A stretch of DNA of 64,000 nucleotides from positions 62,001 through 126,000 of the forward strand of contig JAJVIN010000023.1 in assembly GCA_022071945.1 (NCBI GenBank), given 5' to 3'. The stretch's first letter is position 1. The number at the start of each line of letters is the position of its first letter. Source of the DNA: Thermoanaerobaculia bacterium. GTDB taxonomy: Bacteria; Acidobacteriota; Thermoanaerobaculia; UBA5066. Positions 32,801 to 62,572 of this stretch are shown piece after piece. A program made the position numbers and the translations under genes. Under the pieces are notes generated by a model. That model was not told the DNA's origin. It did not search any database and worked only from the letters and a program-made list of their open reading frames with translations.

Positions 32801-33601
32801 CTCGTGGAGGAGCGCGAGCGGTGCCTTCACGCCGGGATGAACGACCACGTGACCAAGCCCATCGATCCGGACGTCCTGATTCAGACCGTTGCCCGGTACC
32901 TGGTACCTGTTGCGGAAGAGTCCGTCGCGGTCTTTCCCGAGGCCGAAGGCCCGCTCCCCGTCGCCACCGTGGACGTGGATCTCCCGGCGGGGGTTCCGGG
33001 CTTCGACGAGCGGGAGGCCCTCCAGCGCCTGGCGGGCAATCGCCGGCTTCTCTCGGATCTTCTGCGGGACTTCGCCCGGGAGCAGAAGGACTTCACCGAG
33101 AGACTCGGGGAAGCCTTCTCGAGGGAGGATTTCTCGTCGATCCGAAGGCTCGCGCACGCCATGAAGGGGGTCGCGGGCAACCTGTCGCTGCGAACCGTGC
33201 AGGAATCCGCCGCTCAGGTCGAGAACGCGGCCAAGCGAGGCGGGCGTGAGGAGGTCGAGAGGCTCCTTCCGTCGCTGACCGGCAGCCTCGAGGCCGTCCT
33301 CGGAGTTCTTCACCCGTGGGCCCAGCCCGCGACTCCCGACGGACCACCGGCGCTCGCGGGTCCCCTGGACCGGGTCTGTGTCGAGGCCAAGCTGAAGGAG
33401 CTCGACACGCTTCTTCTCGAGGGCAACCTGAGGGCAGACGAGGTCTTCTCCGAGCTGTCGTCCCTCGTCGCCGGGCACGCGATCGCCGAGCACGAGGCGG
33501 TCTCGAAGAAGATCCAGGGGCTCGACTACGCGGCGGCGCGTCCCGCCCTCGCCTCTCTGGCGCGGGCTCTCGACATCAGGTGGCAGGAGGTGGCCTCATG
33601 A
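29852..33601 (+). CDS. Hybrid sensor histidine kinase (PAS-HisKA-HATPase-REC-REC-HPt), 1249 aa
   Basis: GTG start with AAGGAG about 8 bp upstream. N-terminal membrane helices (about residues 18-75) are followed by three PAS domains ('FRQITDSVPGIIFQL', 'WQLALAASEDGTWDWD', 'AVQQNPSMIFVTSRGGEIEYVN') with PAC ends ('DITERK'), then HisKA ('SHEIRTPMNAVIGLSH'), HATPase ('NLAGNAVKF', 'DTGIGLS', 'GGTGLGLTISKRL'), two receivers ('VLVVDDSHSARM'/'VVLMDWKMSPWDG' and 'ILVVDDNEINQ'/'LVLMDVQMPVMDG') and an HPt domain ('RRLAHAMKGVAGN'). All phosphorelay residues look intact, as in BarA/TorS-type kinases. First gene of a four-gene signalling operon; it overlaps the next by ATGA. Confidence 0.93.
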   Translation: MPEPSFLVAVTNVVFGVRFRTLALGVLALVLLPTAAAAGPDNSLKPLGDAVPLGLAFAAGVGAGLAAATLWKKKLNQEVSERLAAEERFRQITDSVPGIIFQLRQKPDGKRKITFVSRQLAGITSSQAASGLGSWAAAIENVIAEDLPGLTAALDRSAARLERWVHEFRLKTPDGSLRWQLVEAQPKILPNGDIVWNGFLTDVTERRKLEKDLREAEERWQLALAASEDGTWDWDPVSGKIWFSRRWKGILGFEDFEIPDEFTSFQELLHPADAERVLGELQAFVEGRTWDLELEFRMSHKDGGWRWIVCRAAGQRDEAGHVRRLVASNRDITRRKLAEMELKKLSEAVQQNPSMIFVTSRGGEIEYVNPRFTQLTGYTADEIRGRTPNILKSGQVSRAVFENLWQTILSGEPWRGELLNKKKNGELFWASVSISGVKGEQGAIENFVCIEEDITERKHAEKELENSRDELAAQRSELADAVEVLTQTQIELARAKEAAESASRAKSEFLANMSHEIRTPMNAVIGLSHLALQTSLTPKQRDYITRIHRSAQNLLGIINDILDVSKIEAGKLTLESVSFNLEEVLDNLATVLSPRVNEKELELLIAVEPEVPKLLMGDPLRLGQVLLNLAGNAVKFTEKGEIAVRASLAGRSETGVELRFEVKDTGIGLSRDQMSRLFTAFSQADSSTTRKYGGTGLGLTISKRLVELMNGRIWVESEPGKGSRFCFTAAFGLTDHAPLESLAPPADLRGLRVLVVDDSHSARMIASEMLVAMGFRVDAVASGPEAVELVEKASASGEPFRVVLMDWKMSPWDGLETARRIQGDAVVGDKPVIVMMTAHGREDVMRQAESMGIKGFLLKPMSPSLLLNMLVDRIQDDKTVPRLASRATMRRDRVHELRGARILVVDDNEINQIVAREILEACGATVKVADNGEDALISIAEDPPDLVLMDVQMPVMDGLEATARLRQDPQFAKLPVLAMTAHALVEERERCLHAGMNDHVTKPIDPDVLIQTVARYLVPVAEESVAVFPEAEGPLPVATVDVDLPAGVPGFDEREALQRLAGNRRLLSDLLRDFAREQKDFTERLGEAFSREDFSSIRRLAHAMKGVAGNLSLRTVQESAAQVENAAKRGGREEVERLLPSLTGSLEAVLGVLHPWAQPATPDGPPALAGPLDRVCVEAKLKELDTLLLEGNLRADEVFSELSSLVAGHAIAEHEAVSKKIQGLDYAAARPALASLARALDIRWQEVAS

Positions 33602-34830
33602 GCGCGCCAACTGCAGCTGGCGCGCCAACCACGGCTGGCGCGCCGGCCGCAAAACCCAAGGTTCTCGTCGTCGACGATCAGCCCGTGAACGTCAAGGCCC
33701 TCGGAGCCCTCCTGCAACCCGAGGTCGATGCCCTGTTCGCCACGGACGGCGCCGGGGCGCTCGCCAAGGCCGCCCAGCTGGCTCCCGACCTCATCCTGCT
33801 CGACGTCGACATGCCGGGAATGGACGGCTACGAAGTCTGTCACCGCCTGAAAGCCGATCCGAAGACGGCCGACATCCCGGTCGTCTTCGTGACCGGCATG
33901 AGCCAAACCCAGGACGAGGAAAAAGGCCTGGCGCTCGGCGCGATCGACTACATCGCCAAGCCCTTCCAGCCCGCGATCGTCAAGGCCCGCGTAAGAAATC
34001 ACCTGGAGCTCAAGCGGAGCCGCGACGCTCTCGTGGAGAGCTATCGCCGCCTCGAGGCGACCCAGGCGAGCCTCGTGCAGGCCGAGAAGATGGCGTCCCT
34101 GGGGCAGCTGGTCGCCGGAGTCGCTCACGAGATCAACACGCCCCTGGGGGTCGCCCTGACCGCCGCGAGCCACCTCTTCGAGCGGGCCGGGTTCCTCGAT
34201 GAGCGGTTCCGGTCCGGACGGATGACGAAGACCGATCTGGAGTCCTTCCTCTCTCTCCACAAGAACTCCTCGGATCTCGTCCTCTCGAGCCTCGAGCGCT
34301 CGGCCGTCCTCGTCCAGCGATTCAAGCAGATCGCGACCGCGCAGGCACAGGACTCGCTCGCCGAGATCGATCTCGGGACGCATCTGATCGACGCGTTCGG
34401 GCTCTGGGCCTCCGCCAATCCGGATCGGGATCTCAACGCCGATGTCTCCTGCCCGCCCGACGTCGTCCTGCAGACGTTCCCGGCCGCCCTCACCCGCCTC
34501 CTGCACACCCTGTTCGACAACGTGGCCGCGCACGCCTACCCCGGCGGAGAGACAGCGGCCGTCGACGTCCGGGTCGACATCACGGGGTCTGGGGTTGAAC
34601 TCGCCGTGGCGGACCACGGGGTCGGAATCGCGCCCGAGGCCATGGCGAAGGTCTTCGATCCGTTCTACACGGCACGCAGGGGCGAGGGCTTCGTGGGCCT
34701 GGGCTTGACCATCGCGTATAACCTCGTCACGTCGACGCTGCACGGAACGATCGTCATCGAGGCGACTCCGGGGGGCGGCACGACCGCCCGGGTCAACCTG
34801 CCCAGCCGCGTCACTTCGGCCGTTCGTTGA
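33598..34830 (+). CDS. Receiver-histidine kinase protein, 410 aa
   Basis: The ATG overlaps the previous stop (ATGA). A short Ala/Pro/Gly/Thr tail is encoded by an 18-bp tandem repeat (33604-33648). A complete receiver follows ('VLVVDDQPVNVKAL', 'LILLDVDMPGMDG', 'VFVTGMS', 'DYIAKPF'), then a coiled coil and a kinase core with H-box 'VAGVAHEINTPLGVAL', N-box 'LFDNVAAHAYP', 'DHGVGIAPE' and 'GLGLTIAYNLV'. The receiver-first order lets an upstream kinase control this kinase. It is a soluble protein and a likely phosphorelay partner of the hybrid kinase before it. Confidence 0.92.
   Translation: MSAPTAAGAPTTAGAPAAKPKVLVVDDQPVNVKALGALLQPEVDALFATDGAGALAKAAQLAPDLILLDVDMPGMDGYEVCHRLKADPKTADIPVVFVTGMSQTQDEEKGLALGAIDYIAKPFQPAIVKARVRNHLELKRSRDALVESYRRLEATQASLVQAEKMASLGQLVAGVAHEINTPLGVALTAASHLFERAGFLDERFRSGRMTKTDLESFLSLHKNSSDLVLSSLERSAVLVQRFKQIATAQAQDSLAEIDLGTHLIDAFGLWASANPDRDLNADVSCPPDVVLQTFPAALTRLLHTLFDNVAAHAYPGGETAAVDVRVDITGSGVELAVADHGVGIAPEAMAKVFDPFYTARRGEGFVGLGLTIAYNLVTSTLHGTIVIEATPGGGTTARVNLPSRVTSAVR
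33604..33648 (+). repeat. 18-bp coding tandem repeat (2.5 units)
   Basis: Units starting at 33604, 33622 and 33640 share GCGCCAAC...GGCTGGC and encode APTAAG, APTTAG and APAA at the extreme N-terminus of the receiver-kinase. Confidence 0.6.
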
Positions 34831-34840
34831 GGGATGAGAA

Positions 34841-35623
34841 ATGGATGACAGCGCCGAGACCCAGAATCTCCAGATGCTGCAAGAGACCGAGAGCGATCGC
34901 GTCCTCGCTCGCCTCGTGCCCGGGCTGGCGCACGACCTCAACTCCATCTTGGGGGTTGCCCTCACGGCCGCAACCCACGCAACCGGCACGCTCACGTCTC
35001 TCGGCGGCTCGCTCGAGGGGGCCACGCTCACCAAGAGCCAGCTGCAGTCTGGCCTGGACACGATCGAGGAAGCCCTGCGCCTCGTGGAAGGGAATCTCGT
35101 GCGCGCGGTCCAGCTGGTCGGAGGCTTGAAACACATCACCGGGCAGCAGACGGGGGCCGACCCGGCCGCCGTCAATGTCCGGACCGTTCTGGACGATCTC
35201 GCGATGGCCCTGGGCCCGGCCTTCAGAAAGTCTCCGCACCGCCTGGAGGTCGACGCCCCCGATTTGCTCCCCCTGAAAACGCGAGGCATCGAGCTCGGCC
35301 GTGTGCTTCTCAACCTCGTTCAGAACTGCCTCGTTCACGCATTCCCGAAAGGGACCGCGGGAACAGTCCGCCTCGAGGCGCGAGGCTCGGACGGCGGCGT
35401 CGTCATCACCGTGGCGGACACCGGCAGCGGCATGCCCCCCGATGTCGCCGCGAGGGCCTTTGACCTCTACTACACGACACGCCGGGACGAAGGAGGCACC
35501 GGACTGGGACTCTCGGTCGTCAAGGACCTCGTCGAGGGATCTCTCCAGGGCAGGATCTCTCTCCAGACCTCTCCGGGAGCCGGAACGATCTTCCGGATCA
35601 CTCTCCCCAATATTCGCGGCTGA
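34841..35623 (+). CDS. Soluble histidine kinase, 260 aa
   Basis: No sensor domain is visible. The protein begins almost at the phospho-acceptor helix with 'LVPGLAHDLNSILGVALTAA', a variant H-box with the His followed by Asp-Leu-Asn. The ATPase domain has N-box 'LLNLVQNCLVHAFP', 'DTGSGMPPD' and 'GGTGLGLSVVKDLV'. It is about 10 bp after the previous gene and upstream of the REC-HD-GYP gene. Without its own input it probably acts as an intermediary kinase in the same relay, perhaps as a heterodimer with the preceding kinase. Confidence 0.88.
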   Translation: MDDSAETQNLQMLQETESDRVLARLVPGLAHDLNSILGVALTAATHATGTLTSLGGSLEGATLTKSQLQSGLDTIEEALRLVEGNLVRAVQLVGGLKHITGQQTGADPAAVNVRTVLDDLAMALGPAFRKSPHRLEVDAPDLLPLKTRGIELGRVLLNLVQNCLVHAFPKGTAGTVRLEARGSDGGVVITVADTGSGMPPDVAARAFDLYYTTRRDEGGTGLGLSVVKDLVEGSLQGRISLQTSPGAGTIFRITLPNIRG

Positions 35624-35650
35624 GCGCGGCGGAAAGGACTCGTGGAGGAC

Positions 35651-36838
35651 ATGACGCGACCCGATGAGATGGATCAACTCTTCGCCGAGGAGGAGGCGCT
35701 CGAGCCTCGCCCGGCGTCCAAGGATGATCCCTGGAAGGTCCTGGTCGTCGATGACGAGGAACAGGTTCACGCCGTCACGCGTCTCGTTCTGGGAGACTTC
35801 GAGTTCCAGGGCCGCGGCCTGAAGTTCCTCAACGCCTACACGGCCCAGGCGGGGGCCTCCCTGCTCGTCGAGAATCCCGACGTCGCCGTCATCCTTCTCG
35901 ACGTCGTCATGGAGAGCGAGCACGCGGGCCTCGAGCTCGTGCACAAGATCAGGGAGGAGATCGGCAACCGGTTCGTCAGGATCGTCCTTCGCACCGGCCA
36001 GCCTGGCCAGGCTCCCGAAAAGCAAGCGTTCTTGGAATACGACATCAACGACTACCGGACGAAGACCGAGCTGACCGCCGAGAAGCTCTTCACGGCGATG
36101 GTCGGCGCCCTCAGGAATTACGAGGACATCAAGCGGATCAAGAGGCTGTTCGAGCAGGTCAAGGCCTCTCAGCTCGCCACGGTCGTCGCGATGGCCGACC
36201 TGGCCGAGTACAAGGACGAGGACACGGGAGACCACGTCTTGAGGATCAAGAGGCGGACCGAGGCGATCGCAAGAAAGCTCGGGGCCTCGGGTCCGTACTC
36301 GGTTGCGATCAACGAGACCTTTCTCGAGCTCGTCGGAACGGCGGCGATCCTCCACGACATCGGAAAGATCGGGATCCCTGACAGGATTCTGCAGAAGCCC
36401 GCCAAGCTCACGGCCGAGGAATGGGAAGTGATGCGCACCCACGCGCTGATGGGAGAGCACCTCCTGAGGAAACTCGCTGCCATGGTGCCTGGACCGAGCT
36501 TCATGTCGATCGGGGCCAACATCGCCGGCGGCCACCACGAGAAATGGAACGGCACCGGCTATCCACGGGGCTTGAAGGGCCAGGAGATCCCCCTCGAGGC
36601 CCGCATCGTCGCCGTCGCAGACGTCTACGACGCCTTGACTTCCCGCCGCGCGTACAAGGAACCGTGGCCTCCCAAGGAGGCGCTGGAGGCTCTCAGGCGC
36701 GACGCGGGCTCCCACTTCGATCCCCTGATCGTCGAGGCCTTCCTCGAGCTCGTCGCCGAGGGAAACGACGGCACCATCGAACCCAGCGCCCCGGCGCCGC
36801 CCCCCGAAACACCCGAGCGAAAGGAACCGGCCGAGTGA
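35651..36838 (+). CDS. Response regulator with HD-GYP c-di-GMP phosphodiesterase domain
   Basis: I start at ATG 35651, which has GGAGG 4 bp upstream; the GTG at 35642 lies within that site. A receiver (about residues 28-150: 'VLVVDDEEQVHAV', 'VILLDVVMESEHAG', 'TGQPG') is followed by an HD-GYP domain: 'LHDIGKIGIPD', 'THALMGEHLL', 'GGHHEKWNGTGYPRGLKG', 'RIVAVADVYDALTSRR'. All metal and GYP residues are present, so active hydrolysis of cyclic di-GMP is expected. A proline-rich acidic tail ends the protein. It is the likely output of the three upstream kinases, linking them to c-di-GMP level. Confidence 0.94.
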   Translation: MTRPDEMDQLFAEEEALEPRPASKDDPWKVLVVDDEEQVHAVTRLVLGDFEFQGRGLKFLNAYTAQAGASLLVENPDVAVILLDVVMESEHAGLELVHKIREEIGNRFVRIVLRTGQPGQAPEKQAFLEYDINDYRTKTELTAEKLFTAMVGALRNYEDIKRIKRLFEQVKASQLATVVAMADLAEYKDEDTGDHVLRIKRRTEAIARKLGASGPYSVAINETFLELVGTAAILHDIGKIGIPDRILQKPAKLTAEEWEVMRTHALMGEHLLRKLAAMVPGPSFMSIGANIAGGHHEKWNGTGYPRGLKGQEIPLEARIVAVADVYDALTSRRAYKEPWPPKEALEALRRDAGSHFDPLIVEAFLELVAEGNDGTIEPSAPAPPPETPERKEPAE

Positions 36839-49005: not shown

Positions 49006-51573
49006 GTGCCGATCGCTCCCCTGGTCAGAAAGGGCCCTCTGTCGAAATCGCTCGAAGGGCTGCGAATCGCGATCTGCCAGATCCGCGTCTTTCCCGGACG
49101 GCCCGACCGGAACCTCGAGACGATTCTGAAGGAGCTCGCTCGCGCCGCCGCGACCGGGTGCGAGCTCGCCGTCTTTCCCGAGATGGCCGTTCCCGGATAC
49201 CTGATCGGCGACCTGTGGGAGGAGGAGAGCTTCGTGAGGGACGTCCTCGCCGCCAACGACGAGATACGCGCGGCCACCAGGGACGGCATCGCGGCCGTCT
49301 GGGGCAGCCTCCTCGCCGACCCCGGCAAGAAGAACGAGGATGGCCGGATCCGAAAGTACAACGCGGGTCTCGTCGCGCAGGGCGGGCTCCTCGTCGACAA
49401 CGGCGCGACTTCCGCCGCCGTCAAGACCTTGCTCCCCCGGTACCGGATCTTCGACGACGCCCGCCACTACACATCCACGAGGCAGATCGTCGAGGAGAGC
49501 GGCACCGCGGGCCGGGCCCCGGCCCTCGACCTCTGGACTCTGCTCCGCCCCTTCCCGATCCGCCGGGAGCAGGGCAAGAGCCGCAGGCCGGTGCGCATGG
49601 GCCTCGTTCTGTGCGAGGACATGTGGCATCAGGACTACCCGTTCGATCCCTCGTCGATCCTCGTTGCAAACGGCGCCCAGTTCCTCGTCAACATCTCGGC
49701 GTCGCCCTGGACGTGGCAGAAGAACAGGAAGCGCCACGAGGTGGTCCAGCAGATCGTCACGAGTTGCCGCGTTCCGTTCCTGTACGTCAACGCCACCGGT
49801 GTGCAGAACAACGGGAAGAACCTGATCGTCTTCGACGGGTGCTCCACCGTCTACAACAGCGAGGGAGAGCTCGTCGCCGCCGTGGACTCTCACTCGGACA
49901 CACCGCGGGACCTCGTCCTCACGAAGAAGCTCCCTCCTCTTCCCCTGCCCCCCCAGAACGATTCCGCCGAGCTCTTCGAAGCCCTGAAGACCGCGCTTTC
50001 GGAGTTCCTGGGGACTCTTCCAGAGGAGAGGCGAAAGGCTCTCGTCGGGGTCAGCGGCGGAATCGACTCGGCCGTCGTCGTCGCGCTCCTCGTTCACCTC
50101 CTCGGACCCGGAAAGGTCACGGCCGTCTCGATGCCGTCGAGATTCAACGGACCGACGACGCTCGGCATCACGAATGAACTCGCCGCAAACCTCGGTGTCG
50201 AGCTCGTCACGGTTCCGATCCAGGAGATGGTCGATCAGCTCGCGAGGGCCACGGAAATCTCGCCTTCGGACTTCGCCTACGAGAACGTTCAGGCTCGCGC
50301 CCGGATGCAGATCCTCGCAACCCTCGCGCAGAAGACGGGCGCCCTCTTCACCTGCAACGGGAACAAGGTGGAGCTCGCGTTCGGGTATTCGACCCTGTAC
50401 GGCGATCAGTCCGGCGCGGTGGCTCCGATCGGGGACCTCGTCAAGCGCGAGGTGAGGCAGCTCGCCCTCTATCTGAACGAGCACGTCTTCTCACGCGAGG
50501 TCATCCCGCGCCTCGCCATCGAGATGAAGCCCTCCGCCGAGCTCTCGCGGGAGCAATGCGTCGAGGAGGGAAAGGGAGACCCGTTCGACTACGGCACGGC
50601 TACCTCGCGCGGGTACCACGACGAGATGGTGCGCGCCTTCACCGAGTTCCGCAGAGGCCCCGAGTGGTTTCTCTCCGAGTGGGCGTCCGGCAGCCTCGAG
50701 GACACCCTCATGCTCCCAAAAGGCACTCTGGCGCGCCTCTTTCCCTCACCATCGGACTTCATCTCGGATCTCGAGGACAAGTGGGCGAGATTCGTGGGGT
50801 CCGTCTTCAAGAGGGTCCAGGCACCCCCCATCCCGATCGTGTCGCGGCGGTCGTTCGGATACGACCTGAGGGAGGCGATGCTCTCCCCGCACTTGACCGA
50901 GCGGTACCGGGACCTGAAGAGAGCCCTCCTCGCGCGCCATCGGGCGGTGCGCCGGATCGCGGTCTACGGCGGGAGCTTCAACCCGCCCTCCCGGCACCAC
51001 CAGGAGATCGCCGGGCGTCTTGCCGGGACCTTCGACCTCGTCATCGTGGTTCCCTGCTGGCTCAGGGAAGACAAGGCTTCGGTCTCCGAGGTCTTGCCGG
51101 ACCACAGGCGGAGGATGGCGGAGATCGCGTTCTCGGGACTCGCGAAGGTGCGGATCGACCTCATCGACATGGAGAACCGCGAGTTCACCCCCACGTGGAA
51201 GCTCGACGAGCGGATGAAGGCACGCTTCCCGGATGCCGAGATCTGGCACGTGATCGGCGGAGATCTCGTCGTGGGCGGCAAGGCCGGAAGGTCCGAAATC
51301 CAGGCGGGCTGGCAGGAGGGCGCGAAGATCTGGGAGCGCCTCAACTTCGCCGTTCTCACTCGAGAGGGGTCCGGCATGACGCTCGAGGATCTCCCGCCGA
51401 AGTCCCACCTCATCGACGGCTCGGGTCTCATCGGGTCGGGGACGCTCGTCCGCTCGCGAATCGCGAGCGGCGCGGACGTGGCTTCGCTCCTCGATCCAGC
51501 CGTCCTGGCTTACATCCAGAAGCATGGGCTCTACGGCTGCCACCCCAGCGCGGAAGGAAGCGCCCGGGCCTGA
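49006..51573 (+). CDS. nadE: Glutamine-dependent NAD synthetase fused to a NadD-like adenylyltransferase, 855 aa
   Basis: Three domains are seen. Residues about 18-300 are a nitrilase-type glutaminase with triad E59 ('VFPEMAVPGY'), K140 ('KTLLPRY') and C203 ('VLCEDMW'). Residues about 325-600 are NAD synthetase with S350-GGIDS and 'CNGNKVELAFGYSTLYGDQSG'. Residues about 645-845 are a nucleotidyltransferase: 'AVYGGSFNPPSRHH' (G655 onward), 'WHVIGGDLVVGG' and 'IGSGTLVRSRI' (ISSTxxR-like, near 811-818). The third domain matches nicotinate-mononucleotide adenylyltransferase, so one protein would perform the last two steps of NAD synthesis. The HxGH motif of NadD reads S-R-H-H here. GTG start; no ATG nearby. 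Single gene. Confidence 0.9.
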   Translation: MPIAPLVRKGPLSKSLEGLRIAICQIRVFPGRPDRNLETILKELARAAATGCELAVFPEMAVPGYLIGDLWEEESFVRDVLAANDEIRAATRDGIAAVWGSLLADPGKKNEDGRIRKYNAGLVAQGGLLVDNGATSAAVKTLLPRYRIFDDARHYTSTRQIVEESGTAGRAPALDLWTLLRPFPIRREQGKSRRPVRMGLVLCEDMWHQDYPFDPSSILVANGAQFLVNISASPWTWQKNRKRHEVVQQIVTSCRVPFLYVNATGVQNNGKNLIVFDGCSTVYNSEGELVAAVDSHSDTPRDLVLTKKLPPLPLPPQNDSAELFEALKTALSEFLGTLPEERRKALVGVSGGIDSAVVVALLVHLLGPGKVTAVSMPSRFNGPTTLGITNELAANLGVELVTVPIQEMVDQLARATEISPSDFAYENVQARARMQILATLAQKTGALFTCNGNKVELAFGYSTLYGDQSGAVAPIGDLVKREVRQLALYLNEHVFSREVIPRLAIEMKPSAELSREQCVEEGKGDPFDYGTATSRGYHDEMVRAFTEFRRGPEWFLSEWASGSLEDTLMLPKGTLARLFPSPSDFISDLEDKWARFVGSVFKRVQAPPIPIVSRRSFGYDLREAMLSPHLTERYRDLKRALLARHRAVRRIAVYGGSFNPPSRHHQEIAGRLAGTFDLVIVVPCWLREDKASVSEVLPDHRRRMAEIAFSGLAKVRIDLIDMENREFTPTWKLDERMKARFPDAEIWHVIGGDLVVGGKAGRSEIQAGWQEGAKIWERLNFAVLTREGSGMTLEDLPPKSHLIDGSGLIGSGTLVRSRIASGADVASLLDPAVLAYIQKHGLYGCHPSAEGSARA

Positions 51574-51656
51574 CGGCCCTTTTCTCGCAGACTCCCGCAG
51601 GCACCGGAGGCAGCCCTAACAGGGCGTTAACAAACTTCCGCCACCCTACCAAGCGG

Positions 51657-51686
51657 TGACTGACATCACGGTCGTGACGCCAGTCA
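51657..51686. promoter_or_regulatory. 30-bp imperfect dyad, probable operator of the roadblock/ODP operon
   Basis: Nested inverted repeats share one centre at 51671.5: outer arms TGACTG / CAGTCA and inner arms TCACG / CGTGA. Twelve of fifteen half-site positions are symmetric, with no loop and no T-run, which favours a protein-binding site over a terminator. It sits in the otherwise empty 51574-51884 stretch, just upstream of a possible -35 box. Confidence 0.5.
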
Positions 51687-51688
51687 GG

Positions 51689-51718
51689 TTGTTTTCAGCC
51701 ACGGATTGAATCTAGAAT
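51689..51718 (+). promoter_or_regulatory. Possible sigma-70-like promoter of the roadblock/ODP operon
   Basis: TTGTTT (51689-51694) and TAGAAT (51713-51718) are separated by 18 bp and lie in a locally AT-richer segment 167 bp before the first gene. The -10 matches five of six consensus bases, the -35 only weakly. The 5' leader that follows (51719-51884) has no gene. Confidence 0.35.
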
Positions 51719-51884
51719 TCGCCTTTCGTATCCAGGGTCCGGTGGCAGCCGAGTCGCCCGTCGCTCTTCCAAATATTCCCAAAGGCGAAAAGCCTCCGGG
51801 GCTGCCGCACACCCTTCCAAGTCGCCGAGAGCGGGGCGCGTCGCCGCTCCGAGAAGAGACCAACACCCGGAGCAGGAGCAGAGC

Positions 51885-52253
51885 ATGTCGAGAATCGACG
51901 ACCTCAACCATTCCCTTTCGGAACTCAAGGCGAGCTCGGGTGACATCGAGGCCTGCGCCGTCGTGGCCGAGGACGGCCTGATGATGGCGTCCTCGCTTCC
52001 CCAGGGGGTCGAGGAAGCCCGCGTCGCGGCGATGGCCGCGGCCATGCTGACGATGAGCACCCGCACGATGCGCGAGCTCAAGCGCGGAAACCTCAAGCAG
52101 CTCTTCCTCAGTGGCGACGACGGCTACGTCGTCATCATGCAGGCCGGACCTCACGCAGTCCTGATCGCTCTGGCCCGCAAGGAAGCCAAGCTCGGCCTCC
52201 TGTTCTTCGACATGGCCCGCTCCTCCGAGACGATCGCGAAGGTCCTTTCCTGA
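51885..52253 (+). CDS. Roadblock/LC7-domain protein (MglB-like), 122 aa
   Basis: A single roadblock domain: 'MSRIDDLNHSLSELKASSGDIEA' style N-terminal helix, strand 'CAVVAEDGLMMASSL', helix 'EARVAAMAAAMLTMSTRTMREL', strands 'LKQLFLSGDDGYVVIMQAG' and 'AVLIALARKEAKLGLLFFDM'. In bacteria such proteins form dimers that act on MglA-like GTPases controlling polarity and motility. No GTPase gene is in the window. First gene of the seven-gene operon; 10 bp before the ODP gene. Confidence 0.88.
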   Translation: MSRIDDLNHSLSELKASSGDIEACAVVAEDGLMMASSLPQGVEEARVAAMAAAMLTMSTRTMRELKRGNLKQLFLSGDDGYVVIMQAGPHAVLIALARKEAKLGLLFFDMARSSETIAKVLS

Positions 52254-52263
52254 GGAACTCTCG

Positions 52264-53010
52264 ATGCTCACCCTTTTCGACGCCAACGGACACAAGAAAG
52301 TCTGCTTTCACGATCTGACCTCCGGACACATGTTCCAGGCCAACCAGCACGTCGTGGTTCACGCCAACGAGGCGCTCGTCCTGGATCCCGGCGGGCACAA
52401 GGTCCACACGAAGCTCTTCGCCGAGATTTCGGCGGTCGTCTCGATGTCCCAGGTGAAGCACCTGTTCTTCTCGCACCAGGATCCGGACATCATCGCCGCC
52501 GCCAACGCCTGGCTCATGATGACGGACGCGAAGGGCTATCTCTCCTCGCTCTGGATGCGCTTCATCACCCACTTTGGCATCGACGAGCTCGTCGTCTCGC
52601 GGCTCGTGGCCATCCCGGACGAGGGAGGAACCATCACCGTCGGCGGTCAGCCCCTCGAGCTCATCCCCGCCCACTTCCTCCACTCTCCCGGTAACTTCCA
52701 CGTTTACGATCCCGTCAGCAAGATCCTCTATACCGGGGACCTCGGGGCGTCTCTCGGACCGGACACCATTCAGGTGACGGACTTCGATGCACACATTCCG
52801 CACATGGAGGGTTTCCACAGGCGCTACATGGCTGGAAACCGGGCGCTGAGGGCCTGGGCGGAGAGGGCCAGGAAGCTCGACATCGAGACCATCGCTCCCC
52901 AGCACGGAGCCATGATGGCGGGTAAGCCCCTGGTGGAGCGGTTCATCTCCTGGGCCGAGAACCTCTCTTGCGGCACGGACATCCTGTTCGCCCCGGGGGT
53001 TCCTTCCTGA
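52264..53010 (+). CDS. Di-iron metallo-beta-lactamase-fold protein, ODP oxygen-sensor type
   Basis: 248 aa, MBL fold only. Metal ligands fit flavodiiron spacing: H71-x-D73-x-D75 ('SHQDPD'), H140 ('FLHSPGNF'), D159 ('TGDLGAS', 18 residues after H140) and H214 ('APQHGAMM'). The His that usually follows the DH pair is Ile76, as in ODP-type proteins that bind oxygen or iron for signalling. There is no flavodoxin domain, so reduction of oxygen as in true flavodiiron enzymes is less likely. Placement between a roadblock protein and a histidine kinase supports a sensory role. A hydrolase role cannot be excluded. Confidence 0.78.
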   Translation: MLTLFDANGHKKVCFHDLTSGHMFQANQHVVVHANEALVLDPGGHKVHTKLFAEISAVVSMSQVKHLFFSHQDPDIIAAANAWLMMTDAKGYLSSLWMRFITHFGIDELVVSRLVAIPDEGGTITVGGQPLELIPAHFLHSPGNFHVYDPVSKILYTGDLGASLGPDTIQVTDFDAHIPHMEGFHRRYMAGNRALRAWAERARKLDIETIAPQHGAMMAGKPLVERFISWAENLSCGTDILFAPGVPS

Positions 53011-53135
53011 CCAACGACGGGCACGACCGGCCGCGCGCGGCATTCCAGAAGGGTGAAGCGGACGCCCGGTCTGCCCAGTCTGCCGGGCCGGAGCTCGAAC
53101 CCGTGGCTCGAGCTCCGGCGGGCGGACAGCAGCCC

Positions 53136-54635
53136 ATGGAAAAGCTGTCCTTCGCCTATCGGGCCTTCCTGACGTCTCCCCTGGCCGTCTGTTTCACGGA
53201 CCGGCAGGGCACGATCCTGGACGCCAACCGCGGCTTTCTCGACCTCTACGGATACGGGCTCGACGAGGTCCTCGGGAAGAATCCGAGAATTCTGAAGTCC
53301 GGGAGGCAGCGGCGAGAGGCGTACACGGAGCTCTGGAGGGCGATCTGTTCGCCCGGCCAGGGTTTCTGGAACGGCGAAGTCATCAACAGGCGAAAGGACG
53401 GGAGCGAAGTGACCGTCCACCTGACGGTGAGCGCGGTGAGGGACGCCGCCGGCCGTCATGTCGGCTTCTCGGCAAGCGCGCTCGACATCACGAAGCGAAA
53501 AGCCATGGAGGAGGAGCTCGCCGAAAAGAACCGGGAGCTCGTGTCTCTCAACCGCCTCAAGAGCGAGCTGATGGCCATCACCTCGCACGATCTCAGGTCC
53601 CCGCTGCACGCCCTGACGCTGCGGGCCGAACAGCTGCGCGAAGCCCTCCCCAGGGCAGGCGCGGGTCACGCCCAGGCCGCGGAAGCCCTCGCGAAGATCG
53701 CGGCGTCGACCCGGCAGCTCTCCGAGCTCGTCCAGAGCCTCCTGGACCTCGAACGGATGGGCTCGCAGGCCATGACGCTCTCTCTCAGACGCGTCTTTCT
53801 CGACGCCGTCATCGCCTCATCGATCGAGACCCTCAGACCGGCCTTTGACGCGAAGGGTGTCGGGCTCCGCTTCGAGGCCGAGTCGCGGCGGGAACGGGTG
53901 GTGCTCGACGTCATCAAGATGGAGCAGGTCTTCGGGAACATCCTGGGGAATGCCCTGAGGTTCTCTCCGCCGGGAACGGACGTCACCGTCCACCTCGGCG
54001 ATGGAACCGATGGAGGCAAGAGGATCGTCGTTTCCGATCAGGGTCCGGGCGTGCCGCCCGAGGACCTTGTGCGGATCTTCGACCGCTACTACCAGGTCCA
54101 GAAGCGCAACGGTCTCGCCGAGCGCGCGTTCGGGGGCGCCGGCCTCGGTCTCGCCATCGCCCGCAGTGTCGTCGAGAGCCACGAGGGACGGATCTTTGCC
54201 GAGAACATCCCCGGTGGCGGCGCGCGATTCGTCATCGAGCTGCCCCGCAGGACGGCCACCACGACGGGCCGCGATCTCGCCGTCATCATCGTGGACCCGG
54301 CGGGTGTCCTGGCCAGCGAGCTGGCTCCGCCCCTGGAGAAGAAGGACGCAGAGATCTTCACCGTGAAGAGTGCCTGGGAGCTCCGCCGCGTGTACGAATA
54401 CGAGCGCCCGGAGCTCCTCTTCTTCGATGCCGGAACCGTGGATGGCGAAGCGGCAGCCTTCATCCGGCAGATCAGGAGCGAACCGGTTTGTCCGACCCTC
54501 GTGATCGCGGTCGAGGAGGAGGCGGGCCAGGCCATCCAGACCCTTGGCGCGACGGCCCTTCTCACCCTCCCCGTCCTCGAGACGGAGATCTTCGAGATCC
54601 TGCTTTCCGCGGCTCGTTCTCACGGTGAGAGATGA
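53136..54635 (+). CDS. PAS histidine kinase with a degenerate C-terminal receiver
   Basis: 499 aa from ATG 53136; no strong ribosome-binding site is visible and an earlier GTG (about 53103) is possible, as the frame is open back to the ODP stop. PAS ('FLTSPLAVCFTDRQGTILDA', 'DITKRK') is followed by HisKA ('AITSHDLRSPLHALTL') and HATPase ('NILGNALRFSP', 'DQGPGVPPED', 'GGAGLGLAIARSV'). The last 125 residues fold like a receiver but have lost key residues: 'VIIVDPAG' for the acidic pair, 'LLFFDAG' keeping the Asp, 'VIAVEEE' for the Thr, and no Lys. It ends in ATGA overlap with the next gene. The degenerate receiver is probably a docking domain. Confidence 0.88.
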   Translation: MEKLSFAYRAFLTSPLAVCFTDRQGTILDANRGFLDLYGYGLDEVLGKNPRILKSGRQRREAYTELWRAICSPGQGFWNGEVINRRKDGSEVTVHLTVSAVRDAAGRHVGFSASALDITKRKAMEEELAEKNRELVSLNRLKSELMAITSHDLRSPLHALTLRAEQLREALPRAGAGHAQAAEALAKIAASTRQLSELVQSLLDLERMGSQAMTLSLRRVFLDAVIASSIETLRPAFDAKGVGLRFEAESRRERVVLDVIKMEQVFGNILGNALRFSPPGTDVTVHLGDGTDGGKRIVVSDQGPGVPPEDLVRIFDRYYQVQKRNGLAERAFGGAGLGLAIARSVVESHEGRIFAENIPGGGARFVIELPRRTATTTGRDLAVIIVDPAGVLASELAPPLEKKDAEIFTVKSAWELRRVYEYERPELLFFDAGTVDGEAAAFIRQIRSEPVCPTLVIAVEEEAGQAIQTLGATALLTLPVLETEIFEILLSAARSHGER

Positions 54636-55546
54636 CGGGATACCGGATACTCGTCGCCGAGGACGACCCGATCGCCCGCTCTTCACTGGCCGACTACCTC
54701 GTCCTGAGCGGCTATGAGGTGAGTGTCGCCGCGGACGGCCGCGAAGCTGTCGAAAAGGCCCGGCGCCTGCGCCCGGACGCCATCCTTCTGGACGTTCAGA
54801 TGCCGGGCTCGGATGGACTGGAGGTCCTGCGGATCCTCCGGGACGACCCGGACCTCATGGACACCCCGATTCTCCTCGTCACGAGCCTCGCTCGGACAAA
54901 CGTGAAGGTTCGCGCCCTGGACCTGGGCGCCGACGACTACATCGTCAAGCCCTTCGACAAGGTCGAGCTCGTCGCGAGGGTGAGGCGGGCCCTCAGGAGA
55001 AGCGCGCGGTACCGGGAGCTCTCTGGCAAGCTCGAGGGGAATCTCGCGGACGTCGCGCTGCCCGAGCTGTTGCAAACGCTGGAGCTGGGAAAGAAGACCG
55101 CCCGGGTCTCTTTCGTGGGTCCTGGGGCGGAGCTTTTCCTGGAACGCGGTTTCCTGCGGGCCGCCACCTGGGCCGGCAGCCCCGCCGAAGAGGCCCTGTG
55201 CCGCCTTCTTCTCGTGAACACGGGTTCGTTCCGGGTGACGTTCGAGGATCCGTCCCCTCTGGGCGAGAGCCCGGCCGGGCTTCCCGTGCAGGAGGCCCTG
55301 CTCGAGGCAGCCCGCGCGCTCGACGAGCTCCGGCGCGTCATTCCGGGCTCGCCCTCGTGGGAGAGCCTCTTCGAGATCGCCGGAGGGGAAGATGCCCTTG
55401 CCGGCCTGCGGCTACCCGGCCAGAACGGCCCGCTCTCCCTCGGCGCGCTTGCGACCCGTTTCGACGGAAGCCTCCCCGAGGCCGTCCGGTCACTGGCCGC
55501 TGCCATCCAGAGCGGCGCGGTCCGCGCCATCCCTACCCAAGATTGA
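54632..55546 (+). CDS. Receiver-PATAN (DUF4388) response regulator, 304 aa
   Basis: A complete receiver at residues 1-125 ('RILVAEDDPIARSSL', 'AILLDVQMPGSDG', 'LVTSLAR', 'DYIVKPFD') is joined to a PATAN/DUF4388 domain starting 'GNLADVALPELLQTLELGKKT' with 'AELFLERGFLRAATW' and 'LCRLLLVNTGSFRV'. PATAN domains are found with response regulators controlling twitching and gliding in cyanobacteria, myxobacteria and acidobacteria. Translationally coupled to the kinase (ATGA), so likely its direct phosphorylation target. Confidence 0.9.
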   Translation: MTGYRILVAEDDPIARSSLADYLVLSGYEVSVAADGREAVEKARRLRPDAILLDVQMPGSDGLEVLRILRDDPDLMDTPILLVTSLARTNVKVRALDLGADDYIVKPFDKVELVARVRRALRRSARYRELSGKLEGNLADVALPELLQTLELGKKTARVSFVGPGAELFLERGFLRAATWAGSPAEEALCRLLLVNTGSFRVTFEDPSPLGESPAGLPVQEALLEAARALDELRRVIPGSPSWESLFEIAGGEDALAGLRLPGQNGPLSLGALATRFDGSLPEAVRSLAAAIQSGAVRAIPTQD

Positions 55547-55568
55547 CCGGAAAGGAAGCCATTCAGAG

Positions 55569-56381
55569 ATGGGCAGAGTCATCCTCGTCGGCAGCCAGAA
55601 AGGGGGCGTCGGAAAGACCACGACGGCCCTCAACCTCGGCTACAGCCTCAGCCGCCTCGGCAGCCACGTGATCGTCGTCGATGCCGATCCGCAAGGGAGC
55701 CTCGGGATCGCGAGCAACCTCTCCAGAAAGACCACGACCGGATTCGCGCAGGTCCTCTCGGGCGAGTGCCTTCTGGGGGAAGCCCTGACGAGAAGCCGGG
55801 ACGAGTCGCTGGCGATGCTGGGCTCGGGAGTGAACGAGGCCGACCACGCGATGGTCATCGAGGACGCCGCCAGGGATGGGCGCCTCGGGGCCGAGATGAG
55901 AAGACTCGCGGAGGCGAGCCACTACGTCCTCGTCGATGCACCGGCGGGAGTGGGCAGCCTCGTCCGCGCGCTCCTCGAGGCCGCGGATGGCGTCTTGATC
56001 CCGGTTCGCTGCCAGAATCTCTACCTGAAGAGCCTGCCCGCCTTTTTGAGGCTGGTGCAGAAAGTCAAGGAATCGAGGAATCCCTCGCTCGAGATCGACG
56101 GCGCCGTCGTCACGCTCCGGGACGAGCGCAGCGCATCCGAAACGGCCCTCTATTCCGAGTTCGTCGGCGGGGCTCCGGAGGCTCTCTTCTTCAAGACCGT
56201 CATCCGGCACGACGAGATCTTCGAGAAGGCGTCTCAAAAGGCGGTGCCCGTCGCCATGCTGCCCGGGGCCGCCGCAGCGGCTCGGGCCTACCTGGATCTC
56301 GCGCTCGAGTACCGCGAACGCGAGGCGGAGCGCGGCTGGGGCGCGAGCGAGGAGGAGGACGATGTACAGGGCCTCTTCTGA
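55569..56381 (+). CDS. ParA/MinD-family ATPase without ParB partner, 270 aa
   Basis: I start at ATG 55569, just before 'RVILVGSQKGGVGKTTTALNL', the deviant Walker A; in-frame sequence upstream is shadow of the receiver gene. 'VIVVDADPQGSLGI' is Walker A' and 'YVLVDAPAGVGSLVRALLEAADGVLIPV' the Walker B region. ParA-like ATPases position plasmids, chromosomes or protein clusters on nucleoid or membrane. There is no ParB gene or membrane-targeting helix here, and the roadblock partner gene overlaps by 20 bp. A role in positioning the signalling or motility apparatus is inferred from context. Confidence 0.9.
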   Translation: MGRVILVGSQKGGVGKTTTALNLGYSLSRLGSHVIVVDADPQGSLGIASNLSRKTTTGFAQVLSGECLLGEALTRSRDESLAMLGSGVNEADHAMVIEDAARDGRLGAEMRRLAEASHYVLVDAPAGVGSLVRALLEAADGVLIPVRCQNLYLKSLPAFLRLVQKVKESRNPSLEIDGAVVTLRDERSASETALYSEFVGGAPEALFFKTVIRHDEIFEKASQKAVPVAMLPGAAAAARAYLDLALEYREREAERGWGASEEEDDVQGLF

Positions 56382-56967
56382 GATTCAGGAGGCCTTTCGG
56401 CTCCTGCAGGGGCTCGTGCCGGCTTCGTCCGTTCCCCCAAGGGAACCGGCGCCTGCCGCGCCGAAGACCACCCCGGTCCCCCGGCCGGCTGCCCCGCCCT
56501 CCCCCGCCTTCAGCAAGATCCTGGGTCCCGCCCCCGCCGCCCCCGCGGTGGAGAGGCGGGCACCATCTCGAGCCGCCTCCGTCAGCATCACGGGAGCCAC
56601 GAGAGCCGACCGTCTGGCCTTCGTCCTGGATGCCCTCTGCCTTCGGGCCGGGCTCGCGGGGGCCGTCATCGCGGACGAGAGCGGCTTCCCTCTCGCCGAG
56701 CACGGCCACTCGCTCGCCAGCGAGAATCTCGCCGTCTTCACCTCCGTCCTCGGAGAGGCCCTCGAGAAGGCGGGCCGCCTTCTGGGACACCACGCGGCCG
56801 ACTACATCTCGATGGACGTGGACTATGAACGGCAGCTCGCCCTCAAGCGCTTCGTCCTGGCGGAGAAACCCTACTTTCTCGTGGTCGTCGGACCTCAGGG
56901 CAGCGATCAGCGCTCCGAGCTCGAGGTCTCGATCGGTCAGGTCGTTTCCGTGCTTTCCGTCAGCTGA
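56362..56967 (+). CDS. Roadblock/LC7-like protein with proline-rich N-terminus, 201 aa
   Basis: A short N-terminal helix ('EIQEAFRLLQGLVP') leads to about 55 residues of Pro/Ala-rich linker. A roadblock-type domain at about 75-200 follows: 'RLAFVLDALCLRAGLAGAVIADESGFPLAEHG', 'LAVFTSVLGEALEKAGRLLG', 'MDVDYERQLALKRFVLAEKPYFLVVVGP'. It starts within the end of the parA-like gene (20-bp overlap). It is a second, diverged copy of the domain found at 51885 and could pair with it or with the ATPase. Confidence 0.7.
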   Translation: MYRASSEIQEAFRLLQGLVPASSVPPREPAPAAPKTTPVPRPAAPPSPAFSKILGPAPAAPAVERRAPSRAASVSITGATRADRLAFVLDALCLRAGLAGAVIADESGFPLAEHGHSLASENLAVFTSVLGEALEKAGRLLGHHAADYISMDVDYERQLALKRFVLAEKPYFLVVVGPQGSDQRSELEVSIGQVVSVLSVS

Positions 56968-56975
56968 GGGAGACC

Positions 56976-58094
56976 ATGATCCTTCTCGTTGACGACGAAC
57001 CCGTGTTCCTGGACATCGCGAAGATGGCTCTTCTGGCCGACGGACATGAAGTCGCGACCGCGGGCTCGGCCTTTCAGGCCCTGGAGATCGCGGAAGAGAA
57101 GGAACCCGACCTGATCCTCTCGGATGTCCGGATGCCGGGAATGGGTGGGTTCGAATTCCGGCAGGCGTACGAGAGGCGGCACCCGGCCCGGGCGACCCCC
57201 TTCATCTTCATGACGTCTCTCGGGGAGCCTCACGAGATTGCCGAGGGCTTGGACGACGGCGCCGACGACTACGTCGTCAAGCCCGTCCCGCCCGCCGTTC
57301 TCAGGGCGCGCGTGAGGGCGCTTCTGAGGAGGCGCCGCCGCTGGTCCGCCCCGTCCTTCCAGGGCGACCTGGCGCTCTTCCCGTTCATCAAGGTCCTGCG
57401 TTTCTGCGAGGTGAGCGGCTTCTCGGGAACCGTGGTGTTCGAGGCCCCGGACCTGGCTCTCTCCCTGCCCTTTCGAGCCGGGTCGCCCCTGCCCGGAGAC
57501 TCGGTCGCCGACACGGTTCTCGAGCGGCTCTATGACGCCACGGCAGGGACGTTCACTCTTCGCGCCCAGCCGATCACCTTCGAGGAACTCTCGAGTGTCG
57601 AGGCACGTTCCGCACGGAGTGCAGAGAAGCGCCCGCGCGAGACCGAGCTCGAGAGGCCGATGGGCCGCCTTTCCGCCGTCTCCCTGGGGAGCCGGGCCAT
57701 CCAGGTCCAGACCGAGTTCGTCACGAGCCCGAAGGAGCAGATCCTGACGGTCGCCCTCCTGGACGGCAGGGCTCTTTTGAAGCGAACCTCGGATCCTGAA
57801 CCCCCGGCGACGCGAGCTCAGATGGAGGCGCGGATCCGGCTCCTGCACGCCGAGGTCGAGGAAGAGGTTCGCGAACGGCTCGCGTCGCTCCAGCCCCGTT
57901 CCCCCGATCCGGCCGCTCCCCTGTCCGCAAAGGAACGATTCGACGCCCTGTTCGAGGCCGGCTTCGAGAGCTACCGGGCGGGACGCCACGCGGAAGCCCT
58001 GAAAGCCTGGGAGGAAGCCCACGCTCTCTTCCCGTCGGACCGGACGGTCCAGGTGAACATCGAGATCCTGAAGAGGAAGCTCGGCCAGGCCTGA
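56976..58094 (+). CDS. Receiver-PATAN-like response regulator with helical C-terminus, 372 aa
   Basis: A receiver at residues 1-120 ('ILLVDDEPVFLDI', 'LILSDVRMPGMGG', 'FMTSLGE', 'DYVVKPVPP') is followed by a PATAN-like segment ('FQGDLALFPFIKVLRFCEVSGFSGTV'). A central region with 'GSRAIQVQTEFVTSPKEQILTVALLDG' and a charged C-terminal TPR-like repeat ('AGFESYRAGRHAEALKAWEEAHALFPSDRTVQV') end the protein. It begins 9 bp after the second roadblock gene and closes the operon. The TPR-like end may recruit the output machinery. No DNA-binding domain. Confidence 0.82.
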   Translation: MILLVDDEPVFLDIAKMALLADGHEVATAGSAFQALEIAEEKEPDLILSDVRMPGMGGFEFRQAYERRHPARATPFIFMTSLGEPHEIAEGLDDGADDYVVKPVPPAVLRARVRALLRRRRRWSAPSFQGDLALFPFIKVLRFCEVSGFSGTVVFEAPDLALSLPFRAGSPLPGDSVADTVLERLYDATAGTFTLRAQPITFEELSSVEARSARSAEKRPRETELERPMGRLSAVSLGSRAIQVQTEFVTSPKEQILTVALLDGRALLKRTSDPEPPATRAQMEARIRLLHAEVEEEVRERLASLQPRSPDPAAPLSAKERFDALFEAGFESYRAGRHAEALKAWEEAHALFPSDRTVQVNIEILKRKLGQA

Positions 58095-61996: not shown

Positions 61997-62572
61997 CTAC
62001 GAGCGCTCCGGGGGGCGGACGGGAACCGTGCGGAGCTCGGCCGCCCCTCCCGACACGATGAAGGCCATCGCGTCGGCGCCCCTGGCCTCGATGGGAGTGA
62101 TGAGGCGCCTGGGAACGACGAGCATCTGACCCGCGAAGTTGTAGGACTGCGGGAAATAGACGCAGGCGTGATCGGCCAGCCCGGCCTCGGGCAGCGACTC
62201 CCGCGTGAGGAACCCGACGGCGCGCAGATCGTTGGCCTCGTCGACGACAACCGTCACCGGCCTCTCGAATCCCTTTCGCTCTCCGACGAATGCGTCGGTC
62301 ACGTCGCGAATGGCGGAGTAGAGGATCTTCACGAAGGGAACTTTCCGGAAGATCGCCTCGACGAACTCGAACAGGCGCCGGGTGACGAAGTTCGAGGCCA
62401 GGGCACCGACAACCACGATGATGGCGATCGTCGCGAGAAAGCCCGCCCCCGGAACCGGCAAGCCCATCAGGGCGTCCACCCGCCGGAAGACGAAGACGAC
62501 GATGGCGATCGTGAGGACGGCCGGAATGAAGACGAGAAGACCCCGGAAGAAGTAGCGGACGAGAAAGCGCAT
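61997..62572 (-). CDS. DUF502-family membrane protein, 191 aa
   Basis: I start at ATG 62572 ('MRFLVRYFFRGLLVFIPAVLT'); the longer frame adds a Pro/Ala-rich shadow. Two membrane helices ('GLLVFIPAVLTIAIVVFVF' and 'GFLATIAIIVVVGALASNFV') are followed by the conserved 'PFVKILYSAIRDVTDAF', 'VGFLTRE' and 'VYFPQSYNFAGQMLVVPR' blocks typical of DUF502. Known homologues are uncharacterised inner-membrane proteins. Divergent from the Vgb-like gene. Confidence 0.88.
   Translation of the reverse strand: MRFLVRYFFRGLLVFIPAVLTIAIVVFVFRRVDALMGLPVPGAGFLATIAIIVVVGALASNFVTRRLFEFVEAIFRKVPFVKILYSAIRDVTDAFVGERKGFERPVTVVVDEANDLRAVGFLTRESLPEAGLADHACVYFPQSYNFAGQMLVVPRRLITPIEARGADAMAFIVSGGAAELRTVPVRPPERS

Follow-up and report, generated by a model that had tools for sequence, protein, structure and literature searches.

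A seven-gene operon on one strand

The window examined here, a 64-kb stretch (G000:C13:62001-126000) that corresponds to positions 62001–126000 of the 164-kb contig C13 in a 6.17-Mb acidobacterial genome, contains seven plus-strand genes at 51885–58094 that form a candidate oxygen-responsive signalling operon. In order, they code for a roadblock protein (ROB1), a di-iron oxygen-binding protein (ODP), a PAS histidine kinase, a response regulator combining a receiver with a DUF4388 (PATAN) domain (RR-DUF4388), a ParA-type ATPase, a second roadblock protein (ROB2), and a further regulator with C-terminal TPRs (RR-DUF4388-TPR). A prediction made from the sequence alone (the original prediction) had named these families and suggested an undescribed oxygen- or redox-controlled polarity circuit; the strand-uniform set is indeed present, with all seven genes placed by Pfam, PDB or fold matches. 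The features, in window coordinates, are as follows:

51574–51884, plus strand: intergenic region 5′ of the operon, the presumed promoter region
51885–52253, plus strand: ROB1, a roadblock/LC7 protein of 122 amino acids (Robl_LC7, 2.4e-15), nearly always directly 5′ of ODP
52264–53010, plus strand: ODP, a di-iron oxygen-binding protein of 248 amino acids with a metallo-beta-lactamase fold (Pfam ODP, 7.6e-71)
53136–54635, plus strand: cytoplasmic PAS histidine kinase with PAS, HisKA and HATPase domains (start uncertain; the frame is open from 52968)
54632–55546, plus strand: response regulator, receiver plus DUF4388 (PATAN) (Response_reg, 6.5e-30; DUF4388, 2.3e-14)
55569–56381, plus strand: ParA-type ATPase (AAA_31, 2e-30) with the deviant Walker A motif SQKGGVGKTT and a C-terminus ending in GLF
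56362–56381, plus strand: ParA/ROB2 coding overlap, with the ParA stop in fixed +1 register within the ROB2 N-terminal motif
56362–56967, plus strand: ROB2, with an N-terminal helix (residues 6–18), a disordered linker (19–80) and a roadblock domain (81–199) in the AlphaFold2 model
56976–58094, plus strand: response regulator with a receiver, a DUF4388-like domain, a beta domain and C-terminal TPRs

Successive genes are spaced by 10, 125, −4, 22, −20 and 8 nt. The compactness originally described thus applies to most of the junctions, but the proposed start at 51657 is intergenic, the first ATG being at 51885, and the 125-nt spacing between ODP and the kinase is short only if the kinase uses an upstream non-ATG start. 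A promoter scan of 51574–51884 gave no match to the sigma-70 consensus.

Conservation and variants of the gene set

Species genomes were scanned with an ODP alignment, and the 80 closest loci were compared. Many of these are contigs of metagenome-assembled genomes (MAGs) with taxonomy taken from record titles, some are cut by contig ends, and gene starts were assigned mechanically. ROB1 lies less than 1 kb from ODP at 64 of the 80 loci, and at least four other core families are present at 33; the original prediction had proposed that finding four or more of the genes together would support a single conserved system. The order ROB1-ODP-(HD-GYP)-kinase-RR-DUF4388-ParA-ROB2-RR-TPR is found in Myxococcota, in Thermodesulfobacteriota (Geomonas, Desulfuromusa and others), in one Nitrospirota MAG and in one MAG labelled Pseudomonadota; the window form is designated type I. 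Aminicenantes have a rearranged form of the cluster, and at two loci (L055 and L079) the half running from the kinase to RR-TPR is divergent. No other widely recurring family is seen among the clustered flanking frames of these loci, which gives the module clear boundaries; in the window itself, neither the upstream gene (ending at 51573) nor the downstream genes are conserved neighbours. The same gene order appears in several phyla and no further family recurs in the flanks, which excludes a chance grouping of unrelated neighbours.

Among 199 sampled Acidobacteriota genomes, most of which have a single roadblock gene, all seven stand-alone ODPs scoring above 190 bits (both of those in this genome and those of G021, G024, G069, G108 and G239) are accompanied by a roadblock gene no more than about 0.6 kb away. 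At the other ODP locus of this genome (C13:151.9-155.2 kb; L031:3896-7215), the genes read kinase-ROB1-ODP-RR-DUF4388-TPR, which is the order of a type II cluster (kinase-ROB1-ODP-RR-DUF4388-TPR-ParA-ROB2) present in Myxococcota and Acidobacteriota. The two loci did not arise by recent duplication, as their ODPs fall on opposite sides of a branch with 99/97 support. The genome also has an ODP-less copy on contig C10 (about 85.7–89 kb; L130:7716-10974, minus strand) composed of RR-DUF4388, a 140-aa protein, ROB1, ParA and an overlapping ROB2-like gene, and this copy presents what appears from its gene content to be the core without its ODP sensor.

Type III clusters, from the acidobacterial family f6 (L037-L039), contain protoglobin, RR-DUF4388-TPR, a small protein, ROB1, a second roadblock-like protein, ODP, ParA and ROB2; the small protein is about 140 aa long and has no Pfam match. 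Type IV is found at three Chloroflexota loci (L068, L080 and L110), where DUF4388 is fused to ROB1 and the place of ParA-ROB2 is taken by an MglA-like GTPase followed by a roadblock-like frame (recognised by eye), with protoglobin next to ODP and a receiver-roadblock protein as further genes. At L068 both domains of the DUF4388-roadblock fusion are significant, as is the receiver-roadblock protein. From variants I–IV and the ODP-less copy we conclude that the predicted core of roadblock, PATAN and nucleoside triphosphatase (NTPase) components is constant, with the sensor and the type of NTPase exchanged.

Elsewhere in the window, a single 855-aa frame at 49006–51573, judged by eye, looks like a nitrilase-like/NAD synthetase protein whose C-terminus carries a NadD-like nucleotidyltransferase domain, and a separate cluster about 15 kb upstream of the operon (29852–36838) includes a hybrid kinase, receiver proteins and an HD-GYP response regulator. 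A role in anti-phage defence was considered and rejected, PADLOC giving only weak, partial matches to the receiver and P-loop regions.

Predicted sensor, regulators and the ParA–ROB2 pair

ODP matches its Pfam profile end to end (1–194 of 194 positions), and in the PDB it matches the di-iron oxygen-binding proteins 6qrq (2.7e-65) and 6qnm (2e-59). Its predicted metal ligands, H71, D73, D75, H140, D159 and H214 (HxDxD...H...D...H), are exactly those listed by the original prediction and are invariant in 104 of 104 aligned operon ODPs, including a distant acidobacterial clade at about 30% identity. Sensing of O2 or Fe(II) would be expected from membership of this family. An HD-GYP phosphodiesterase gene adjoins ODP or the kinase in 20 loci, and a protoglobin gene lies inside the operon or next to ODP in family f6 and in the Chloroflexota; protoglobins are an established family of haem-based gas-binding proteins. 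Other acidobacteria have ODP joined to a GGDEF domain in one protein (E-values of 2e-43 and 2e-39; L126:6856-8616 and L127:2-1744), apparently as a direct sensor that links oxygen to cyclic di-GMP (c-di-GMP). Because relatives insert HD-GYP or protoglobin genes and GGDEF fusions occur elsewhere, ODP probably behaves as a signalling input, and the protoglobin genes and fusions also strengthen the oxygen link that had been proposed for the operon.

The metallo-beta-lactamase fold with flavodi-iron type ligands would also suit an enzyme, either an O2 reductase or a hydrolase, in which case the cluster would be a stress or detoxification operon. We consider this extremely improbable, since no flavodoxin or rubredoxin partner is seen, all of the neighbours are signalling proteins, ODP is elsewhere fused to GGDEF, and the relative characterised in Treponema denticola senses oxygen for chemotaxis (PMC7666581). 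CheO of Campylobacter, a candidate from a text search, is not an ODP. Five Aquificota loci (L091, L100, L102, L109 and L117) have ODPs with no roadblock neighbour, followed by genes that read by eye as SCO1-like and thioredoxin-like; these ODPs are divergent from a gene that by eye resembles PilM.

The H-box histidine of the kinase is kept in 17 of 17 aligned members. Its C-terminal receiver, which had been called dead, scores only 0.013, and because it is degenerate in the type I relatives too, none of those listed having an intact receiver at this position, it appears to be a conserved pseudo-receiver and not the product of local decay. RR-DUF4388 is a clear member of its family (DUF4388, 53.9 bits against a cut-off of 25). 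The DUF4388 match of the RR-DUF4388-TPR protein of the window falls under the cut-off (E = 0.014), and 14 of its 16 orthologues match at E ≤ 0.01, the best at 9e-8; a PDB fold search with its model gave only receiver domains among the matches listed.

PATAN regulators have been linked to type IV pili, with PixE acting through proposed binding to PilB1 (PMC7690835). Since cyanobacterial PATAN regulators are tied in this way to the pilus motor and tandem ATPases of the type II secretion/type IV pilus family are present in the genome, pili would be a reasonable target of the PATAN outputs. The same two points lend some weight to a dedicated spatial polarity circuit, in which ParA would place a roadblock/PATAN complex at the pole or on the nucleoid and so provide an oxygen-dependent site for pili or another surface machine, as does the positioning of cargos by ParA/MinD ATPases through partners with a disordered N-terminus (PMC10241942). 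This was the part of the original prediction that gained no direct support: no polarity, pilus, gliding or other cargo gene recurs beside the operon in the clustered flanking frames, the usual polarity pair MglA-MglB is at a separate locus, and ParA may be only a switch. A spatial role is suggested solely by the functions that related ParA, roadblock and PATAN proteins have elsewhere, and we regard such a circuit as rather unlikely.

Nor do we find much to recommend a switch of the conservon kind with no spatial role, through which oxygen would control gene expression or c-di-GMP, with ParA serving purely as a switch set by its nucleotide state. The three-part logic of a histidine kinase-like protein, a roadblock protein and an NTPase is the same (PMC8510531), and HD-GYP genes in many of the relatives' operons and the ODP-GGDEF fusions in the phylum would fit c-di-GMP control. 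The outputs, however, are PATAN and TPR regulators, and a Pfam scan matched no DNA-binding domain in any of the seven operon proteins, which makes this reading distinctly unlikely.

ROB1 is an unambiguous roadblock protein (Robl_LC7, 56.5 bits against a cut-off of 23; PDB roadblock 7f8m, 8e-24). ROB2 scores below the cut-off (13.2 bits, E = 0.075), and 22 of its 32 orthologues match, only at E ≤ 0.1. Its AlphaFold2 model has a roadblock fold: the confidence score (pLDDT) of residues 81–199 is mostly above 90, and the top Foldseek match is MglB (6hjm, E = 2.4e-8, TMt about 0.8). The nearest structures to the ATPase are ParA (8ray, 3e-27) and Soj (1wcv, 6e-23), and the signature lysine K12 of the deviant Walker A motif, nearly invariant among relatives, is present in the window protein.

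The position of the ParA stop within the ROB2 N-terminal motif is the same in types I, II and III, as seen in 40 aligned junctions (L042 and L048, which have no shared ParA/ROB2 junction, were excluded). ParA ends in LF in 28 of these, LL in 11 and IF in one, specified by 14 codon pairs, and this L[LF] ending is kept mainly through synonymous changes, with eight forms of the ROB2 residues encoded by the same bases. The GLF of ParA is therefore not a by-product of the overlap. Constancy across codon pairs while the overlapping ROB2 residues vary argues for selection on the ParA C-terminus, and hence for L-[LF] as a probable docking motif; the E/D of ROB2 at the overlap was dismissed as evidence, because it arises from the ParA stop codon.

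Four observations make ParA the likely roadblock-regulated NTPase of the operon: its overlap with ROB2 is fixed across types I–III, its C-terminus appears to be under selection, an MglA-like GTPase with a roadblock-like frame occupies the ParA-ROB2 place in Chloroflexota, and the helix-linker-domain layout of ROB2 parallels that of ParA/MinD partner proteins (PMC10241942). ROB1 and ROB2 might instead act in trans on the housekeeping MglA, so that oxygen signals would enter the usual polarity pathway of MglA. Roadblock proteins are established GTPase-activating proteins for MglA (PMC8510531), the genome has a canonical MglB-MglA-like pair of a roadblock protein and a Ras-like GTPase (C16:59.1-60.3 kb; L131:5114-6267) apart from the ODP operon, and the Chloroflexota versions contain an MglA-like GTPase. 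But an MglA-like gene is present in just four searched loci (the three from Chloroflexota, which have no ParA, and one beside an apparent MglB gene), ParA is the constant neighbour, no MglA-like frame is seen in the searched region of the window, and blastp gives ROB1 no significant match to the MglB of this genome (E = 0.42). Action in trans thus seems very improbable.

Interpretation and relation to known systems

On balance we favour, with modest confidence, the view that the operon is a two-component module responsive to O2 or ferrous iron, with a ParA ATPase under roadblock control at its centre and the PATAN regulators as its output. By analogy with its family, ODP would load iron and bind O2, and would pass its state to operon partners, most directly to its near-constant neighbour ROB1, to the kinase, or to both. 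The soluble PAS kinase would phosphorylate both receiver-PATAN proteins, which would serve as output adaptors. At the core of the module, ParA and ROB2 would be translated as a pair from their overlapping genes, and ROB2, in carrying its N-terminal helix on a disordered linker, is reminiscent of the proteins that partner ParA/MinD ATPases. The roadblock proteins and the sensor would gate the cycling of ParA, and this cycling would in turn decide if the PATAN outputs act and perhaps also at what site. Likely targets would be surface behaviours, such as those of type IV pili, or c-di-GMP control.

Several observations weigh against this view. Neither ParA nor ROB2 accompanies the genome's other ODP locus, and some Desulfobulbaceae ParAs lack the signature lysine. 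The mean net charge of the type I ROB2 N-terminal peptide is −1.8, opposite to the rule that partners of cargo-positioning ParA/MinD ATPases have a positively charged disordered N-terminus (PMC10241942); the corresponding peptides of types II and III and of the ODP-less copy appear more basic. In favour of the view, the pairwise evolutionary distances of the seven proteins are correlated (r = 0.41–0.87, with 0 of 500 permutations as high), in a comparison that ignores the species tree.

Roadblock proteins were long ago proposed as regulators of NTPases in general, and to our knowledge every worked-out bacterial case concerns Ras-like GTPases. A widespread roadblock-ParA operon, alongside a sister version in which an MglA-like GTPase replaces ParA, makes the general proposal directly testable; in what looks like an oxygen-responsive switch, ParA would do the job of the Ras-like GTPase in the known systems. 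We also put forward, tentatively and with the balance of evidence nearly even, that these operons are a new class of roadblock system, defined by a ParA-type and not a Ras-like NTPase, by swappable gas sensors (ODP or protoglobin) and NTPases (ParA or MglA-like), and by L-[LF] docking. If the favoured reading is true, ODP oxygen sensors, so far tied to Treponema chemotaxis, gain a second signalling context among anaerobic and predatory bacteria, one that seems to be far more widespread, and gas sensing joins the known inputs of PATAN regulators.

We found no description of the full gene set in the open-access literature, in agreement with the claim that the system is undescribed; the search missed most subscription papers, so an earlier partial mention is possible. 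Parts of such neighbourhoods have been seen before, since a passage of PMC4316618, citing Makarova 2006, notes PATAN genes near mgl genes.

The ODPs of Treponema denticola (TDE2498) and Thermotoga maritima belong to the same family as the operon ODP, with a full-length match and the same ligand set, and are likewise soluble stand-alone sensors. The Treponema protein is coupled to a chemoreceptor homologue and CheA (PMC7666581), whereas the operon ODP is associated with roadblock, ParA, PAS kinase and PATAN proteins, and no chemotaxis protein is among the seven. As in MglA-MglB of Myxococcus xanthus, a roadblock gene adjoins that of a P-loop NTPase, and the ROB2 fold is closest to MglB; the operon differs in having a ParA-type ATPase in place of a Ras-like GTPase and in the addition of a di-iron sensor and a kinase. 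The Actinomycetota conservons (CvnABCD) similarly combine a kinase, a roadblock protein and an NTPase in one operon (PMC8510531), but here ParA stands for the Ras-like GTPase, PATAN regulators and ODP are present, and CvnC is missing, a Pfam scan of the seven proteins having found neither the Ras-like GTPase nor DUF742. Because the defining Ras-like GTPase is absent, the window operon is a member of neither the conservons nor the MglAB systems.

With PixE and LsiR of cyanobacterial phototaxis, the operon shares the use of a receiver and a PATAN domain as the output of a sensor (PMC7690835), and it differs in its receiver-PATAN(-TPR) domain order and its oxygen/PAS input. The ParA/MinD positioning systems (ParC/ParP, PpfA/TlpT, McdAB and TadZ among them) offer a parallel, since there too a ParA-like ATPase is adjoined by a partner protein in which an N-terminal peptide is combined with a disordered linker (PMC10241942); in the operon described here, by contrast, the partner carries a roadblock domain, and the ATPase sits within a two-component oxygen-sensor operon.

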